From positions 1 to 26,364 of IMG/VR virus record IMGVR_UViG_3300032242_001355: DNA of 26,364 nt, one strand, 5' to 3'. Of this stretch, positions 8,100-19,485 are shown one piece after another (position 1 is the first letter of the stretch; each line of letters starts with the position of its first letter). The notes under the pieces were generated by a model. The model made no database searches, had not been told where the DNA came from, and saw only the letters and a list, made by a program, of their open reading frames with translations. A program made the position numbers and the translations under genes. Source of the DNA: a virus.

Positions 8100-8900
8100 A
8101 GAGGCTATTTAGGTGGTACTCTTAATACAGCGCCGATGAGAGCGTTCGTGGGTGCAAGTCCCCGCCGAGTGTTAGTCCCAACCGTGAGGTTGCAGATACT
8201 AGCGGTAGTTAGCCGGTTAGAGCGGTATTCGGTCGAACACGCATATACAGCAACATCGTGTATGAATTGTCCAAGTACTTAAAACGCATCGGACTCGCCT
8301 CGTGTTCATGATGGGTTGGATGTCCCAAGTAAGATACTTAAGTCTTTTTTACTTGGTTGGTAAATGCGGGGTTGGTTGTATAAAACAACACGAAGTGTCC
8401 TTTTAGAGGAAGTCAGCAAGTACCCCCTAAAGACAGTGCTTTTAAAAGTGGACTGCGAGGGTTTCCTGATAGGTTGTTTTCTTTTTGTCCAGCATCCCGC
8501 TGTCCCTCTTTTTGCCTTGCTTTTTACCCTTCGCAGCGTAGATGCCAGACGCCCGAATGGAGAGAATGACAGTTCTGTTTTCCCTGGATAACTAATGTTT
8601 AACTGGCATCCCCCTCGGCAGACACCGGGTCAAACGTTCCGTTCGAGTCCGCCGAGTGGAGAGTGTGTCACCTGAGCGAATAAGACAAAACCCCCTGCTG
8701 TTGCTGTAGTTTCGGTAAGAATCACGTGGAATCACAGTGAGAGGGAGACGGAAGGATTAGCATAACCCAATATCTCTCAAAGTTAGTGCTCTCATACTGT
8801 CAGGAACAACTCACCAACTGCACATCACAGGCTATCTCAGACGCTAACAACACTACAACTACAACTACATAGAACGCATGGCAAAGCCATCAAACTATTG
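8100..8900 (+). ncRNA. Candidate large structured noncoding RNA
   Basis: No protein frame on either strand here has a start, ribosome-binding site and plausible composition. Many helices can be seen by eye. In plus-strand order they are: a T-loop-like hairpin (GGG, TGCAAGT, CCC) around 8150-8162; CAACC-GTGA-GGTTG, a GNRA tetraloop hairpin, near 8179-8192; CATATAC/GTGTATG around 8242-8264, whose U-G pair forms only in plus-strand RNA; CCAAGTAA/TTACTTGG (8325-8356); GTTGT/ACAAC (8375-8389); GATGCCAG (8541-8548) with CTGGCATC (8603-8610), a perfect 8-bp pair; a 12-bp interrupted helix from CTCGGC (8614-8619) to GCCGAG (8651-8656); and CAGT-GAGAG (8735-8743) with CTCTC-AT-ACTG (8789-8799). The size and phage setting recall GOLLD/ROOL-type RNAs. 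I cannot confirm membership, and the ends are approximate. Confidence 0.5.
8853..8869. repeat. Short CTACAA hexamer repeat
   Basis: CTACAACTACAACTACA is almost three copies of the hexamer that also occurs as five perfect copies at 11720-11749 in the other large intergenic region. It lies at the downstream end of the structured stretch, next to a small hairpin ATGGC-AAA-GCCAT (8878-8890). Confidence 0.6.
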
Positions 8901-9023
8901 ATTCTCCTGGCTATCTTCTACTCAATACAGCAAGAGTGTGCACCCCAACGTACTTAGGCCTTAACTACGCAATAAAGGGGGAAGGGCGCCGTTTTTCCTG
9001 GGTTTTGCTCCCGCAGGCGTTGA

Positions 9024-9065
9024 CTCGTTGGGCTTCAGAGCCCGCTCGTTAGGCTTTTGAGCCAA
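9024..9065. repeat. Two 21-bp tandem hairpin units
   Basis: Units 9024-9044 and 9045-9065 both begin CTCGTT and each folds into a short hairpin (GGGCT-TCAG-AGCCC and GGCT-TTTG-AGCC). The stems differ but stay paired. Read on the minus strand they lie downstream of the amidoligase operon, after another hairpin, GGGG-A-GC-ATA-GC-CCCC, at 9085-9100. Together they could be a composite terminator for that operon or repeated RNA elements. Confidence 0.6.
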
Positions 9066-9131
9066 GCAAACTAAGTGAGCGGACGGGGAGCATAGCCCCC
9101 CGCCCACGTCGCCAGAATCGCAATCTAGCCA

Positions 9132-9305
9132 CTAATCCGGCAAGATAACGTGAGCGCCTATCTTGTCACCCAGCAACAGGTAGCCACACCCTGCCCGCTC
9201 GGCCTCAAAATTGACCACCCAGCGCCCCACAGTGTCAACCTGCACGCTTAAAATGCGCACCTCTTGAGACTGCAGAAACTCAGTGACATGGCTAGTATCG
9301 GTCAT
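9132..9305 (-). CDS. Small unknown protein, 57 residues
   Basis: The frame starts with ATG at 9305 (MTDTSHVTEFLQSQEVRI), overlaps the end of the preceding membrane-protein gene by 14 bases, and ends with TAG at 9132. The product alternates hydrophobic and charged residues (VQVDTVGRWVVNFEAERAG, then GYLLLGDKIGAHVILPD), suggesting a small beta-rich soluble fold. It is the last gene of the amidoligase operon and is followed by tandem hairpins. I do not recognise a family. Overlap and protein-like composition support it. Confidence 0.65.
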   Translation of the reverse strand: MTDTSHVTEFLQSQEVRILSVQVDTVGRWVVNFEAERAGCGYLLLGDKIGAHVILPD

Positions 9306-9477
9306 CTAGCCACCCCACAATCCAAACCAGCGACAGCGTCACAATCACCCAAACAATGCACGCCCACGGGTCGCTCCTCGAGTCCCCATACCAACCGCCA
9401 GTGAGGTGATTATGCACCCACAAAGCAACGCACCAGCCGGTCACCAGAGCGCCTACAAAGACAATCCACGCCCTCAT
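9292..9477 (-). CDS. Small two-span membrane protein
   Basis: This 61-residue protein starts MRAWIVFVGALVTGWCVALW. It has hydrophobic segments at about residues 3-20 and 38-56, joined by a hydrophilic loop (HNHLTGGWYGDSRSDPW). The start overlaps the stop of the amidotransferase gene as ATGA, so the two are translationally coupled. Its place in the operon suggests it may tether or assist the amidoligase/amidotransferase pair at the membrane. That is inference; no family is recognised. Confidence 0.75.
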   Translation of the reverse strand: MRAWIVFVGALVTGWCVALWVHNHLTGGWYGDSRSDPWACIVWVIVTLSLVWIVGWLDDRY

Positions 9478-10268
9478 CGCTCACCTCCTACGGTCAGGCA
9501 CATGCATTCATCGTAAGCGCTCACACAGTCCAAACACCACCCGCAGAACTCACAATTACTTTCACCATCAGCAACACGAGCACCACAGTCAGGGTTATCA
9601 CACAACCACCAGTGAGACACAAATGAGTCTTTACGTGGCGCAATCCTAAAAGTGTCATACTCATACCCCCAAGCCGAACTGCTGGACATGTAGGACTGAT
9701 TAACGGGCTTATAAGACGAATTAGACCACCAGACTTCAGACGCCGACCAGTGACCGAGACCCTCACCAAGAATCATCAAAGGCATCTCGTCCTCGACGGT
9801 CAGAATCACCACCTTCGACCCAGAGCCCTCCACGAAGCCCTCGAGCACGTCCCAAGCGTGAGGCTTGGACAACCCTGAGACGCCACCAATCAACCCGCCG
9901 AATACCTCACGAGCGAACGTCTCGGAATCAGTCTGGTCACCAGTCGGCTCCAATGGAAGCATGCCATTGTGAGCAATCACAGTGCCACCCGTGCCAACTG
10001 GAAAGCCGTGGCAGTTCTCTAATTTCTTCGAGCCATGTGTGGCGATTCTGGCGTGGAAGAACCAAGCCAACACATCACCACTCACCAACGTCTCGAAGGC
10101 CGAAATTGCCGTTTGAGCATCCATCGAGCGACCAGTGAGCAGACGCCTGATTCCATCCATCTCAACCACTGCACCCCAACCAAACCCATCTGGATTCGAC
10201 TTGCAGGCCTGCTCGAGTTCTGCTCGTGTCGGACGTGCTGAGTCAACCCCAGCGCAAATGACGCACAT
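9474..10268 (-). CDS. Class-II glutamine amidotransferase with C-terminal zinc ribbon
   Basis: This is a 264-residue Ntn-fold amidotransferase. Cys2 directly after the initiator Met (MCVICAG) is the expected nucleophile after Met removal. NPDGFGWG at 25-32, HARIATHG at 72-79 and HNGML at 100-104 match the glutamine-binding motifs of phage GAT-II proteins. Such enzymes hydrolyse glutamine and pass ammonia to a partner synthetase. The C-terminus holds a cysteine-rich zinc-ribbon region (CDNPDC, CEFCGWCLDC) that may bind a partner or substrate. The gene starts at the base where the amidoligase stop ends and overlaps the membrane gene by four bases. Iyer and colleagues described linked amidoligase and GAT-II genes in phages. 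The actual substrate here is unknown. Confidence 0.88.
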   Translation of the reverse strand: MCVICAGVDSARPTRAELEQACKSNPDGFGWGAVVEMDGIRRLLTGRSMDAQTAISAFETLVSGDVLAWFFHARIATHGSKKLENCHGFPVGTGGTVIAHNGMLPLEPTGDQTDSETFAREVFGGLIGGVSGLSKPHAWDVLEGFVEGSGSKVVILTVEDEMPLMILGEGLGHWSASEVWWSNSSYKPVNQSYMSSSSAWGYEYDTFRIAPRKDSFVSHWWLCDNPDCGARVADGESNCEFCGWCLDCVSAYDECMCLTVGGER

Positions 10269-11248
10269 CAGCCCGCCACCATTCCAAAGTTACCACCACG
10301 AAGCAAAACCGACGCCGCAGCTTCTCCTCGAGCATCAACCCAAGCGCTAAAACGTGGCCACTCCAAAGCACCACGCAAAACATCGTGAGCCGTCAGCGTC
10401 CTCGTGTACTCACGAGCAAAATGAACCAGCGCAATAGAACCAAGCACACGCCCAAACTGAAGCGAAGGCCTAAAAATCCTGACCTCGATAGTCTCAGCAT
10501 TGCTAAAGTTCACAGCGTCAAAGTGATTGGCCGAGTAACGAACCTTCACCTTTGTTACAGTTTCGCCCTCGTTGAAATTGGCAAACGATGACGAACGACG
10601 AGCAACACCCTGCCAATCCTTGGCGTTTCGATTGAACAACAAACCAAAACGCACCTGATGGCTGGCAGTCATCCCCTTTCGTGTCATGTGAACATGGAGC
10701 CCGCACTGCGACATGCTCCACGCTTCCATCCCATGCTCCGCAATCTCACGCAACCACGTGCTCCACTGCTCGGCCGATTCCCGCCAAGATTCAAAAGTGC
10801 GAGGGTGACTGACCAACTCGAGGCCATCGCTCGACAGACTGCCATCCTCTTTCATAATTGCAGTATCCGACGGAATAGCGCTGGCGATGTAATCGACAGC
10901 AGACTGACGCCCGCCCCGTGTGTCCATTTCCAACTCGATGCCATAAAACACCGAACCAGCGCCATGCTTCACCCAGCCATCGCTCGGCGTGTAATCGTGT
11001 GACTTCACCAAACGCTCGTCCTCATACGACTCATAACACTCATTGCAAACAGTGTCACCGCTCACCGTGTCGTGTGATTCCATAGATTGACCATACCAAA
11101 CAGCGCACCCCTCACACTCCCAAGCAGAATAAGAAACGCAACTCTCGCACCATTCATACTCACCATGACGAGTCTGCACCGTCATTTCACCGCCGGGCTC
11201 ACTGTGCTCGTCGCACTCATCACACACAAAACATTCCACAACTGACAT
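10268..11248 (-). CDS. Zinc-finger amidoligase (glutamine-synthetase-like fold)
   Basis: This 326-residue protein has an N-terminal metal-binding region (residues 1-75) with CFVCDEC, CESC, CEGC and CNEC. A COG2170/DUF-type amidoligase domain follows. Motifs are GIELEMD at 103-109, EDGSL at 134-138, GLELVSHP at 142-149, CGLHVH at 182-187 and EVRIFR at 255-260. These acidic, His and Arg residues are the expected ATP/Mg and substrate ligands. Such enzymes make amide or peptide-like bonds with ATP. I chose the ATG at 11248 because GGAGG lies seven bases upstream. A frame 33 bases longer exists without that signal. It has its own promoter (11300-11329). The operon is visibly GC-richer than its neighbours (38 of 60 bases in 9781-9840), suggesting separate acquisition. 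Confidence 0.88.
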   Translation of the reverse strand: MSVVECFVCDECDEHSEPGGEMTVQTRHGEYEWCESCVSYSAWECEGCAVWYGQSMESHDTVSGDTVCNECYESYEDERLVKSHDYTPSDGWVKHGAGSVFYGIELEMDTRGGRQSAVDYIASAIPSDTAIMKEDGSLSSDGLELVSHPRTFESWRESAEQWSTWLREIAEHGMEAWSMSQCGLHVHMTRKGMTASHQVRFGLLFNRNAKDWQGVARRSSSFANFNEGETVTKVKVRYSANHFDAVNFSNAETIEVRIFRPSLQFGRVLGSIALVHFAREYTRTLTAHDVLRGALEWPRFSAWVDARGEAAASVLLRGGNFGMVAG

Positions 11249-11299: not shown

Positions 11300-11329
11300 A
11301 TTTTAAGCGCAAAACTTCACCCGTGTCAA
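11300..11329 (-). promoter_or_regulatory. Promoter of the amidoligase operon
   Basis: On the minus strand TTGACA (11324-11329) is followed after 18 bases by TAAAAT (11300-11305). Transcription would start near 11293, leaving a leader of about 45 bases before the amidoligase ATG and its GGAGG site. Confidence 0.75.
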
Positions 11330-11539
11330 TAGTATTTCGCTAATTTCTTAAAAATAATACAAATGCCACCAAACACGCTAGAAAACGATTCTAAAGACTT
11401 AGCACCAAAGTGGACCAACCACCCACAAACAACAAAAAAGTCCGCTAGCGAGCAAACACCAAAAAACACCCATTTTTACCCCCAAAGTGGGGAGCCTGCC
11501 CTAAATAAGTAAAACTCACCAAATTGCATAAAAAACCAT

Positions 11540-11564
11540 TAGCACTCACACGCCTCGACTGCTA
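11540..11564 (-). repeat. 25-bp dyad repeat, copy 3
   Basis: On the minus strand this is TAGCA, 15 bases (GTCGAGGCGTGTGAG), TGCTA. The arms pair perfectly and the core is nearly identical to that of the other two copies. It overlaps copy 2 by two bases. Confidence 0.85.
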
Positions 11565-11587
11565 GCAATCACACGCCTCGACTGCCA
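11563..11587 (-). repeat. 25-bp dyad repeat, copy 2
   Basis: On the minus strand this is TGGCA, 15 bases (GTCGAGGCGTGTGAT), TGCTA. One arm position would be a G-U pair in minus-strand RNA. The same position is G-C in copy 1 and A-U in copy 3. Confidence 0.85.
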
Positions 11588-11610
11588 AAAGTAAGTAAGA
11601 ACTGACATTC

Positions 11611-11635
11611 TGGCACTCGCACGCCTCGACTGCCA
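11611..11635 (-). repeat. 25-bp dyad repeat, copy 1
   Basis: On the minus strand this is TGGCA, 15 bases (GTCGAGGCGTGCGAG), TGCCA, with perfectly paired arms. It abuts the -10 of the SOS-box promoter, so the expected start of transcription near 11628 lies inside it. That favours a DNA-binding role at least for this copy. Confidence 0.85.
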
Positions 11636-11662
11636 ACATACGAACAAATGTTCGATTCTCAA
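11635..11662 (-). promoter_or_regulatory. Promoter with LexA/SOS box in its spacer
   Basis: On the minus strand TTGAGA (11657-11662) and TATGTT (11635-11640) are separated by 16 bases. That spacer contains CGAACAAATGTTCG (11641-11654), a perfect match to the Gram-positive LexA box CGAACRNRYGTTCG and one base short of the actinobacterial TCGAAC-N4-GTTCGA. A bound repressor here would block RNA polymerase directly. The first protein gene downstream is the amidoligase, about 380 bases away with its own promoter. Confidence 0.75.
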
Positions 11663-11690: not shown

Positions 11691-11719
11691 TACGCATCTC
11701 AGACAGTACCAAGCCCTCA

Positions 11720-11749
11720 AACTACAACTACAACTACAACTACAACTAC
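11720..11749. repeat. Five perfect copies of AACTAC
   Basis: Thirty bases of hexamer repeat lie in a gene-free region. A shorter run of the same hexamer occurs at 8853-8869. In one plus-strand frame it would read Asn-Tyr repeats, but I do not believe that frame is coding. Confidence 0.9.
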
Positions 11750-11875
11750 GGGTCCCTAATCGGGACACCATTTCCGGTTCCGCTGGACGCCTCAATCCAC
11801 GCCACAGCAAACTCGACCCCCGCCAAAACAACGGCAACTCCACTATGTGTGTGCAAAAGTCGTAGCGCGAGCCGA

Positions 11876-12712: not shown

Positions 12713-12741
12713 AGCATACAATTTTATGCTTGTCAAGTCAA
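12713..12741 (-). promoter_or_regulatory. Promoter of the three-small-gene operon
   Basis: On the minus strand TTGACT (12736-12741), 17 bases, then TATGCT (12713-12718). The -35 overlaps the end of the WhiB gene. Transcription would start near 12706, about 38 bases before the 12668 start codon. Confidence 0.65.
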
Positions 12742-13124
12742 TTTATTTCTTTTCTTTTCCTATAACGAGCCACACGAATGCGAGTAGCAGAATTATAGGC
12801 ATCAATGCATGGCTGGCATGTAACATGAGATTCGTCCTTTGTCTTTTGGCGTCGATGCCATGCCCACCCTCGCTCGGTCCCGTGTTCGACCTCTTTGCGG
12901 TTAGGTGGTTGGTATCCAAGTGATACCGAAAGAATGCGTAGTTCGTGGTAATCGAGTCCTGCCCAGATTCCCCACGCCTCTCGATGCACGAGCGCCCATT
13001 TAAGACAATCTGCCTTAATGGGACACTCTGAGCAAATCATCTTTGCTCGCATCTGAAAGCGACTGCGGTCGTCAAAGTAGAGTTTAGTTTTACCTAGACA
13101 TCTTGCTCTGGACCAATCAGTCAT
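12738..13124 (-). CDS. WhiB-family protein with Cys/His-rich C-terminal tail
   Basis: This 128-residue protein has the WhiB [4Fe-4S] ligand set: Cys9, then C31-x2-C34-x5-C40. The WGIWAGLD segment is the family's tryptophan/glycine turn. WhiB proteins bind the primary sigma factor and alter transcription in actinobacteria and their phages; phage WhiBs can dominate host copies. After the WhiB domain there is HGTERGWAWHRRQK and CQPCIDAYN, the His and CxxC module common in actinophage small proteins. A basic tail ends RVARYRKRKEIN and could bind DNA. The start overlaps the SSB stop as TAATG. Confidence 0.9.
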   Translation of the reverse strand: MTDWSRARCLGKTKLYFDDRSRFQMRAKMICSECPIKADCLKWALVHREAWGIWAGLDYHELRILSVSLGYQPPNRKEVEHGTERGWAWHRRQKTKDESHVTCQPCIDAYNSATRIRVARYRKRKEIN

Positions 13125-13880: not shown

Positions 13881-14028
13881 CTTCTTCAATCATGTCGTCC
13901 ATCATGTCAGCCAAAGACTTCTGTAATACTTCCTGTGATACGCCATTTAGTATCAAGTGCTTGAACAATGCACCAATGGCTTTGTCCATACCTGCATTAA
14001 CGGCGTCTTCTATGTCCTTATTTTCCAT
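13858..14028 (-). CDS. Small acidic protein, 56 residues
   Basis: The frame starts MENKDIEDAVNAGMDKAIGA, inside the end of the WhiB gene at 14010, and ends with TAA at 13858, inside the nuclease start. The C-terminus is highly acidic (MMDDMIEEDDDTTEG). The middle is a predicted helix (LFKHLILNGVSQEVLQKSL). Overlaps on both sides and protein-like composition support it. Acidic tails of this sort often mimic DNA or bind partners, but the function is unknown. Confidence 0.65.
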   Translation of the reverse strand: MENKDIEDAVNAGMDKAIGALFKHLILNGVSQEVLQKSLADMMDDMIEEDDDTTEG

Positions 14029-14267
14029 GTTGATTTACCTGCTTTCTTTCTATCTTGAATCATACCGTCACGCTTTTTAGCGCTAAGTCCTGCTCGATAA
14101 CCAATCTGAAGAAACTCAGACAACGCTTCATCTAAGCACTGCTCGCTTACTGGGCAAGAAAAACAAATGTTTTTAATTGTTTCCTCAACCTTGTAATGCT
14201 GTCCCTTTGTCGGGTGAAAAATGTTGACATCCATTCCCCTACACTTTGCATCTTCCCTCCAACTCAC
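14010..14267 (-). CDS. WhiB-family transcription factor (compact)
   Basis: This 85-residue protein has Cys9 followed by C35-x2-C38-x5-C44, the full cluster-ligand set of WhiB. The usual GVWGG turn is replaced by GYRAGLS. The C-terminus is basic (KKRDGMIQDRKKAGKSTWKIR). The start is GTG at 14267 in a GTGA overlap with the upstream stop. Compared with the WhiB at 12738 it lacks the Cys/His tail, so the two are not simple duplicates. A likely role is a sigma-factor-binding switch of host or phage promoters. Confidence 0.88.
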   Translation of the reverse strand: MSWREDAKCRGMDVNIFHPTKGQHYKVEETIKNICFSCPVSEQCLDEALSEFLQIGYRAGLSAKKRDGMIQDRKKAGKSTWKIRT

Positions 14268-15618: not shown

Positions 15619-15739
15619 TTGTATCCTCCTTAGATTCAAATCCAGTTAACTTACTTTTATTGCTCGGACAACGGTGTACTACTTCCTCTGCTCGTGCCTC
15701 AACGAGGAGAAGACATTTTGGACAGACCCACTTTTTCAT
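15608..15739 (-). CDS. Small zinc-ribbon protein, 43 residues
   Basis: The frame from the ATG at 15739 reads MKKWVCPKCLLLVEARAEEV, then VHRCPSNKSKLTG. CPKC plus a later HRC gives a likely single zinc knuckle. It overlaps the upstream peptidase stop as ATGA and the coiled-coil start by 11 bases, so it fills the gap in a continuous coupled series. Its own 3' end carries the ribosome-binding site of the next gene. Function unknown. Confidence 0.7.
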   Translation of the reverse strand: MKKWVCPKCLLLVEARAEEVVHRCPSNKSKLTGFESKEDTNVK

Positions 15740-16209
15740 ATTGTTATAAATGTGAACGGTGGCATGGCCATGTTTGAGTGACGTGCTGTAGTCTTCAGTG
15801 CTACACGCACTGCGTTGTTACTTGCAACTTTTTGTTCTGCAAGAACAGCCAAGCAACCAGTCGCCACAGGGTTACCAGCGCCAACAGAGGCATAATTCTC
15901 CTTAAACTTAATCACCGAGAAGTCATCTGAAATCTCGTAGATGTGCTTCTTAGTGACAACCAATAGGTTCCACTCACCGGCAATGTTAGCCTCTTGTAGG
16001 TGATTACGCAAAGCGTACGGGTCACTAAGACCAGCCTTACGTGCGACTTCGATAACACGGAACGAGCCCGAGCCACCGATAAGTGTGTCGCTTACCTTCC
16101 ATACCTTTGGTTCGGCTGACAACTGGTACAGACCACCTTCGTCGTATGCACCAGCGTCACCGCCAATTGAGTATGTTTTACCATCTGTAAAGCCAACAAT
16201 GCAGGTCAT
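15736..16209 (-). CDS. Proteasome-beta/HslV-like Ntn hydrolase
   Basis: This 157-residue protein starts MTCIVGFTDGKTYSIGGDAG. Removing Met exposes Thr as N-terminal nucleophile. GGDAG places an Asp at mature position 17, as in HslV and proteasome beta subunits, and EPKVW places a Lys near position 34. Later segments NLLVVTKKHIYEISDDFSV and NYASVGAGNPVATG fit the Ntn sandwich fold. Related proteins occur in actinophages and Streptomyces, mostly without a known substrate. No ATPase partner is encoded in the window, so it may act alone or use host factors. A proteolytic role is inferred from the catalytic residues. Confidence 0.82.
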   Translation of the reverse strand: MTCIVGFTDGKTYSIGGDAGAYDEGGLYQLSAEPKVWKVSDTLIGGSGSFRVIEVARKAGLSDPYALRNHLQEANIAGEWNLLVVTKKHIYEISDDFSVIKFKENYASVGAGNPVATGCLAVLAEQKVASNNAVRVALKTTARHSNMAMPPFTFITI

Positions 16210-18079: not shown

Positions 18080-18256
18080 TCAAATACTATCTATTGCTAT
18101 TTCGTCGTGGTAGTCAAAAAGATGGTCCATAATCTCTTGAAGACCATAGATAGAACGCTGAGTTCTACACAATTCGCACTTGTAACCACGAAAGTCACCC
18201 TTGTGCTTCATGACGACTTCGCCTGTTTCTTTGTTCACAATCGTTGCGTAACTCAT
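18080..18256 (-). CDS. Small C2H2-type zinc-finger protein, 58 residues
   Basis: The frame starts MSYATIVNKETGEVVMKHKG and contains CELC followed 18 residues later by HLFDYH, a C2H2-like arrangement. The remainder is charged. The start overlaps the glycosyltransferase stop as ATGA, and the gene ends just before the nuclease leader hairpin. It may bind DNA or simply be a stable metal-held fold. No specific family. Confidence 0.75.
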   Translation of the reverse strand: MSYATIVNKETGEVVMKHKGDFRGYKCELCRTQRSIYGLQEIMDHLFDYHDEIAIDSI

Positions 18257-19485
18257 ATATTTAACAACCCTCCAAAATCGTGTGTCTTCTGCTTTACTGC
18301 AATAAGGTTGGCCTGAACGTAAGGTATGTGGTTCTCTCGATGCCAGTCGCTTGGAAAGAAACTACGTAATGCTGACTGTTGGAACCTGCACTTGAAGTCA
18401 ATGAAGTCCGAGTACTGCTTGTCTGTGTAGTACCAGAAAGAGTTCTCGTTCCAGAACGCAATGTGTGTCGGGTCTTGGAAAGCGCCACGTCCATCACTGC
18501 TTGGGGTCATAGATAGCAACATGCCACCGTGTGCCAACTTGTCGTAGCACCATTCCATGAACGCTGTCTTGTTGGGTAGGTGTTCCATAAAGTCGTACGC
18601 ACGGATAACGCCGACGCTGTTGTCAGCAATGTCCATGTCAAAGATGTCACCCACGTAGTCGACGCCTTCACCAGGGCGTAGGTCAACGCCAAGAAATCCC
18701 TCAGCCTTGTTGTGGTGTGCACCTAGGTCGAGGGCTAGCAGACCCTGATTCTTAGACCAGGCTAAGGCGTGGTCCTGAATAGTCTTGTAGTACATGTCCA
18801 CTGTGCCAACCTGAATGTCTGAATTTCTTACCTTCTGGGTGTTGTTAGAATGGACACGCTGAAGATACAAAATCTCAGGAATGTGGTAAAACTTCGTGAC
18901 CTTGTAGAACTGAGACATTATGTCCTGGTCGTCTAGTATCTCTAGATTGGCACGATACCCCTCTATTTTGGCGTATAGGGCACTCCGGAACGCCCTCAAG
19001 TGGTTGGGAGCGAACCAAATATATGACACGTTGTGGGGGTAGGGCTCAAAGGATAGGGCGCCTAGGTAGCCTTCCTCGTTGTAGTACTTCCACCCGTACT
19101 CTGCATCGAAAGGTGGCACCATGTCAGGCTTGCCATCTCCAAGGACCTGAGCGGTGTCAGAATAGACAAAGCCAACTTCAGGCATGTTGTCGAACACGTA
19201 CTCCACGTCCATAAGGGCGGTAGGCATCAGCATGTCGTCGTGGTCCAGTTCCAGCAGGATGTCACCGGTACATAAAGACACGGCCTCACGCTTTAAGGCA
19301 CCAACGCCAGTCAGGCTTGAGTCAGCGTAGACCAGTTTCACACGGTCATCTTGTGGCTTCTCCCAAATGGCTTCACCATTGAGCAGAACTACCCATTCCC
19401 AGTTCTCATTGGTCTGTTCCTTCAGCGACTTGTAACAGTCGTTAAGGTACCTAGGGTCGTGACTCGGTGTGAATATGCTTATCAC
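18253..19485 (-). CDS. Family-2 glycosyltransferase fused to a methyltransferase
   Basis: This 410-residue protein has two domains. Residues 1-210 are a GT-A glycosyltransferase: MISIFTPSHD start, CYKSLKEQT, and DHDD (81-84) as the metal/sugar-nucleotide motif. Residues 245-400 look like a class-I SAM methyltransferase: ALDLGA (251-256), LGVDLRPGEGVDYVGD and an acidic EHL (301-303) with LAHGGMLLSM. The start is GTG, with GGAGG at good spacing. Sugar transfer onto virion protein, DNA or cell-surface polymer followed by methylation is plausible; the acceptor is unknown. The upstream membrane gene overlaps it by 35 bases. Confidence 0.87.
   Translation of the reverse strand: MISIFTPSHDPRYLNDCYKSLKEQTNENWEWVVLLNGEAIWEKPQDDRVKLVYADSSLTGVGALKREAVSLCTGDILLELDHDDMLMPTALMDVEYVFDNMPEVGFVYSDTAQVLGDGKPDMVPPFDAEYGWKYYNEEGYLGALSFEPYPHNVSYIWFAPNHLRAFRSALYAKIEGYRANLEILDDQDIMSQFYKVTKFYHIPEILYLQRVHSNNTQKVRNSDIQVGTVDMYYKTIQDHALAWSKNQGLLALDLGAHHNKAEGFLGVDLRPGEGVDYVGDIFDMDIADNSVGVIRAYDFMEHLPNKTAFMEWCYDKLAHGGMLLSMTPSSDGRGAFQDPTHIAFWNENSFWYYTDKQYSDFIDFKCRFQQSALRSFFPSDWHRENHIPYVQANLIAVKQKTHDFGGLLNI

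Follow-up and report, generated by a model that had tools for sequence, protein, structure and literature searches.

The locus described here raises the question of whether an amidoligase and a glutamine amidotransferase, with two small genes behind them, make up a self-contained modification or anti-host system, and of what such a system would act on. The window, that is, the whole stretch of DNA that was analysed, is IMG/VR virus record IMGVR_UViG_3300032242_001355, which comprises 26,364 bases and may be a fragment. It carries tailed-phage markers (portal, large terminase, SSB, RusA-like, Erf-like, and Cas4-like genes), and two WhiB-like genes, one of them called by eye, suggest an actinobacterial host. 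The operon, read from the minus strand, has WhiB/SSB genes (12.7-13.5 kb) to one side and terminase genes with a probable holin (5.0-7.5 kb) to the other, the holin being a by-eye call that no family matched.

The operon and its control signals

The features of the locus and of its surroundings are as follows.

8985..9120, minus strand: hairpin array just downstream of the operon (-58.8 kcal/mol, z -3.0)
9132..9305, minus strand: 57-aa protein, optional fourth gene, overlapping the 61-aa gene
9292..9477, minus strand: two-span small membrane protein, 61 aa, whose start overlaps the GAT-II stop as ATGA
9474..10268, minus strand: class-II glutamine amidotransferase (GAT-II), 264 aa, the protein beginning MC
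10268..11248, minus strand: amidoligase, 326 aa, with an ATG start and GGAGG 8 nt upstream
11300..11329, minus strand: promoter-like site TTGACA-18-TAAAAT upstream of the amidoligase (11/12 consensus matches)
12738-13124: WhiB-like gene
14010-14267: second WhiB-like gene, called by eye
18253-19485: 410-aa protein, family-2 glycosyltransferase joined to a methyltransferase-like part

The original prediction placed an amidoligase, a GAT-II, a two-span protein, and a 57-residue protein at 9132-11248, and all four ORFs were found there, on the minus strand, the two small ones with overlapping starts behind GAT-II as described. Judging from their identity to the nearest relative, from dN/dS and from homologues of the 57-aa protein, they are not chance ORFs. 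None of the four operon proteins had a useful match in PADLOC or NCBIfam, a DNA-level search in phage records gave no match, and Rfam and tRNA scans were empty. By eye, proteins of 157-163 aa resembling Ntn-hydrolase/proteasome-type subunits occur in the window (15736-16209, without Pfam match) and in three other contigs (L195:7187-7678; L202:4277-4765; L229:7581-8069).

The operon was said to have its own promoter, and the near-consensus site listed above agrees with this; it is kept in the nearest relative, L002, as TTGACA-18-TAGAAT. At the other end, the tandem hairpins are indeed stable, the first alone reaching -28.9 kcal/mol (z -3.7), and the array is nearly identical in L002. They have no U tract, so the terminator role given to them is putative; the array is probably the operon's transcription end. 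The GC shift also proved real. The operon block has 54.0% GC vs. 48.0% to the left and 47.3% to the right, and its GC3 is 0.55-0.69 vs. mostly 0.36-0.53 elsewhere (up to 0.62). Across relatives, the GC of the amidoligase/GAT-II pair exceeds that of its flanks by a mean of 0.055 in the window's clade vs. 0.000 elsewhere, the rise being mainly a feature of this clade.

GTAGTT repeats and a GTCTGAGAT word stand on both sides of the operon (8834-8869 and 11696-11750). This arrangement is found in the window, largely in L002, and in none other among 27 loci checked, and the repeats were rejected on that ground as the driver of cassette exchange. A 27-nt direct repeat is also present in three copies between the WhiB-side genes and the operon (11539-11636) and in a single copy in the nearest relative.

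The enzyme pair

The amidoligase combines an N-terminal zinc-finger region (residues 9-71) with a ligase domain of glutamine-synthetase fold. It matches an unnamed PHROG family at 2.6e-25 and the PHROG "amidoligase enzyme" at 6.1e-5. Taken alone, it reaches 15.8 bits against Amidoligase_2 (PF12224), for which the cut-off is 22; 38 of 40 aligned members of its family match PF12224 at E 0.01 or better, the best at 4.7e-9. Casein-kinase matches of the amidoligase profile were weak and judged to be due to chance. The AlphaFold model (pLDDT 89.8) has glutamine synthetase, YbdK, and GmaS (gamma-glutamylmethylamide synthetase) as its best folds, with Dop and PafA lower; Foldseek gives E 8.9e-6 to glutamine synthetase, and residues 96-326 give a VIA Z of about 12 to glutamine synthetase and YbdK. 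The ligase motifs GxExE, KxDxS, GxHxH, and ExR are kept in the family, with G103, E105, E107, K133, D135, S137, G183, H185, H187, E255, and R257 invariant in 40 sequences.

GAT-II is made up of a Cys2 glutaminase domain and a C-terminal eight-cysteine zinc domain. PF13230 (GATase_4) is matched by 38 of 40 family members, and the model (pLDDT 84.9) resembles the GlmS glutaminase 1xff, of Ntn fold (E 1.1e-7, TM 0.49/0.53). M1, C2, R74, N101, G102, and D114 are invariant in 40 sequences. Families, predicted folds, and adjacency all support the pair as it was originally read, and its catalytic residues, whose loss would have spoken against that reading, are conserved in both proteins. The zinc cysteines likewise show little or no variation among 40 relatives of each enzyme. 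From the families, a glutamine- and ATP-dependent amidation is very probably the chemistry. The core would be a split glutamine-dependent amide synthase, in which GAT-II, through Cys2, would free ammonia from glutamine, and the amidoligase would couple this ammonia to a carboxylate that it has activated with ATP. Both proteins would probably be held together, or onto the target, by the zinc domains.

Compared with L002, GAT-II is 94% identical, with dN < dS, and the amidoligase 78% identical, with dN < dS in all windows except the last 26 codons, where the two are level. Divergence in the first half of the amidoligase gene (10680-11230) is far above that of the surroundings, synonymous sites included: dS is 0.5-1.4 in 50-codon windows over the first 200 codons and 0.1-0.4 after codon 175. 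Diversifying selection in the N-terminal half was therefore rejected, since the raised dS makes DNA exchange likelier, and the comparison suggests that the first half of the gene was exchanged.

Pairs of this kind are not new among phages. Scanning viral contigs with a profile returned at least 593 relatives, and in a first round of analysis GAT-II lay directly downstream of the amidoligase in 83 of 86 loci. Both genes also occur together in isolated phages, among them the mycobacteriophage Marvin, further members of its cluster S, and the OM43 phages MEP401 and MEP402. Marvin gp105/gp106 (JF704100) share the layout of the window, with an amidoligase carrying N-terminal CxxC zinc fingers followed by a GAT-II with a C-terminal cysteine domain, at about 31% and 30% identity. 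The metal-binding extensions, first taken to be unusual, turn out to be common to this phage subfamily. As in the window, GAT-II of Marvin is followed by a small coupled ORF whose N-terminus is hydrophobic; unlike in the window, it has one span and sits in a different phage backbone, and no homologue of the 57-aa protein was found in Marvin. This 81-aa ORF (L004:6308-6553) has a GTG start, overlaps the gp106 stop, and is unannotated in JF704100. In MEP401 and MEP402, which infect OM43 (Methylophilales), adjacent and overlapping genes again encode an amidoligase (PF12224) and a class-II GATase; however, the amidoligase has a long, different N-terminal region, GAT-II has no C-terminal zinc domain, and there is no coupled membrane gene.

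Peptidoglycan cassettes of phiEco32, LUZ24, tf, RIO-1, PSA-HP1, and similar podoviruses, proposed to alter the envelope against superinfection, also contain an amidoligase and a glutamine amidotransferase, but they include further enzymes, namely a second carboxylate-amine ligase, an ATP-grasp enzyme, or a cyclotransferase. None of these three was seen among the window proteins scanned, in a record that may be a fragment, so that the window shares the core pair only and not the full peptidoglycan-modification cassette. The peptidoglycan amidation systems MurT-GatD and AsnB/LtsA work in a like manner, by coupling a glutaminase to ATP-dependent carboxylate amidation. Their ligase folds differ from that of the amidoligase, GatD is a class-I glutaminase, and as systems they are not homologous to the window pair. 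MurT-GatD is described in these terms in PMC5871853. For phage amidoligase/GAT genes such as those of phiEco32, cell-wall modification against superinfection is an earlier proposal cited in two papers (PMC10580990, PMC5498523). Our literature survey found no tested substrate of a phage amidoligase/GAT pair.

The small coupled genes

The ATGA overlap with GAT-II, together with the overlap between the 57-aa and 61-aa genes, indicates from sequence that translation of both small genes is probably coupled. The 61-aa gene has dN < dS against L002. Throughout the window's amidoligase clade (100/100 support), GAT-II is directly followed by a small ORF that has one hydrophobic span or two, mostly with an ATGA overlap. 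The clade has 16 lineages, one of which (L094) ends at a contig end and is not testable; the coupled membrane gene is present in 14 of the 15 testable lineages, one of them (L112) judged by eye, and absent from L116. Outside the clade, it occurs in none of about 45 lineages, Marvin aside, whose one-span version is the exception and whose position in the amidoligase tree is unsure. The two-span sequences have a common topology and little else, apart from a DPxA motif ahead of the second span in a subset. As a control, genes of at least 120 aa were surveyed in ten clade loci: a coupled membrane ORF follows 16 of 74, with two spans in 9, both figures being totals that include GAT-II.

The 57-aa gene is less constant. 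In five other contigs, the two-span gene is immediately followed by a homologue 40% identical to it, and a C-terminal ILPD of the 57-aa protein is kept in both known sequence types. It is cleanly missing in L002 and also missing in most other relatives. In the window, GTGGCTAGAT flanks the ORF on both sides, and L002 has a single partial copy, GGCTAGAT; the gene was apparently deleted there between short direct repeats. On these comparisons, the 57-aa gene is real but optional. The recurrence of the small genes at homologous loci, on which the original prediction depended, thus comes out by half, the 57-aa gene being missing in the nearest relative.

A variable slot and the purpose of the cassette

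The position of the operon was compared among terminase relatives whose contigs span WhiB/SSB to holin, 11 with the pair and 6 without. The cassette runs in the terminase direction in 3 of the 11 pair-bearing slots and is inverted in the other 8, and phages with 74-95% identical terminases carry it in either orientation. The amidoligase alleles are mostly 34-45% identical, whereas the terminases of the same phages are mostly about 85% identical. In the pair-free slots (L164, L165, L177, L195, L202, and L229; terminases 76-88% identical), other small genes are found: L177, L195, and L202 each have one for a beta-clamp-like protein (Pfam E 1.9e-9 to 1.2e-11), L195 in addition encodes the antirestriction protein ArdA (E 1.7e-10; ArdA is also present in L197), and L229 has an Api92-like protein (E 8.6e-5). 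At L195:3700-4864, the beta-clamp-like protein, ArdA, and a 71-aa membrane-type protein form one run at the cassette position. In these comparisons, the cassette behaves as cargo that can be exchanged and that brings its own control signals.

In each of the six pair-free slots, a small gene of membrane type either abuts its predecessor or overlaps with it, the spans of L202 and L229 being below the hydrophobicity threshold and judged by eye. The L164 and L165 membrane proteins align with that of the window over most of their length at E of about 2, and homology of the pair-free-slot membrane genes with the window's is not established. That the small genes define the system holds only in part, in that the two-span gene marks one amidoligase-cassette clade, and is weakened by the similar genes at pair-free slots. 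The view that all four genes are one fixed system was rejected as regards the 57-aa gene, which is missing in L002, and is weakened by the pair-free slots as regards the membrane gene. What is new at this locus is the clade-specific coupled gene and the swappable slot, the enzyme pair itself being known; for the clade-wide coupled membrane gene, slot exchange, and inverted orientations, no description was found in the open-licence papers searched.

We propose that the cassette is an autonomous, moron-like element of an actinobacteriophage and would be one interchangeable cargo of the slot between the SSB/WhiB and holin/terminase genes. Its most likely purpose would be the amidation of an envelope component, for example a peptidoglycan precursor carboxylate, or of a host defence target. 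The two-span miniprotein would probably bring the activity to the inner membrane, or act beside it as a separate envelope effector. Taken as a whole, a swappable cassette amidating a host-envelope or host-defence target has, in our estimate, an even chance of being right. That the pair trades places with other genes in the slot, one of them for antirestriction, speaks for phage-host conflict, and a part in such conflict is somewhat favored; an anti-host role, as first supposed, would fit the locus. The coupled membrane gene argues for a link to the envelope; however, this type of gene also follows other cargo and need not serve the amidoligase, which makes the envelope argument weak. It also counts against the proposal that Marvin's coupled protein has a single span and that, beyond the clade, a membrane gene is not coupled to most amidoligase/GAT-II pairs. 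An envelope target is put forward tentatively, at somewhat less than an even chance; what the cassette acts on and what the small proteins do are only weakly indicated.

Among other explanations, the one that survives best is a counter-defence enzyme, in which the pair would amidate a host protein or DNA within the cell and so disable a defence, the membrane gene being an independent neighbor in the slot. ArdA at the same slot, small coupled membrane genes where the pair is lacking, and the high divergence of the alleles are all consistent with it. Zinc-finger domains, moreover, commonly bind proteins or nucleic acids. Against it, a recognised antirestriction gene occurs in one of the six pair-free slots examined, PADLOC matched none of the operon proteins, and no DNA-modification partner was recognised among the proteins scanned, and we regard it as rather unlikely.

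A metabolic enzyme is harder to sustain. The pair would then make a small amide, such as a glutamine-like compound or a secondary metabolite, supplying the phage or conditioning the host, in line with the closest folds of the ligase. One paper lists the OM43 phage amidoligase/GATase genes as auxiliary metabolic genes and cites a suggestion of secondary-metabolite synthesis or phage-host interaction for the Marvin pair (PMC10580990). Yet a scan of 84,980 bacterial and archaeal genomes found only 2 relatives, both with GAT-II alongside, so that this is hardly a host metabolic gene, and the pair is accessory and highly divergent at the locus; we consider this reading improbable. Least of all do we expect that the 57-aa or two-span protein is itself a substrate amidated by the pair: coupling to the pair and the kept ILPD terminus favor it, but the 57-aa gene is missing from the nearest relative and most others, the two-span sequences share little beyond topology, and small membrane genes also occur where there is no pair.

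The preferred reading thus remains a swappable amidation cassette directed at the host envelope or a host defence. In a bolder form, which we hold to be doubtful, freshwater actinophages would keep a plug-in slot for host-takeover cargo, in which the coupled membrane protein would be a constant anchor or effector and the pair a rapidly diversifying amidation weapon, interchangeable with antirestriction of the ArdA type. Phage amidoligase/GAT pairs are widespread, and the exchange at this locus gives a testable clue to their role, with the coupled membrane gene as a recurring companion. Finally, Marvin shares the zinc-domain architecture and can be propagated on Mycobacterium smegmatis mc2 155, which makes the question experimentally tractable.
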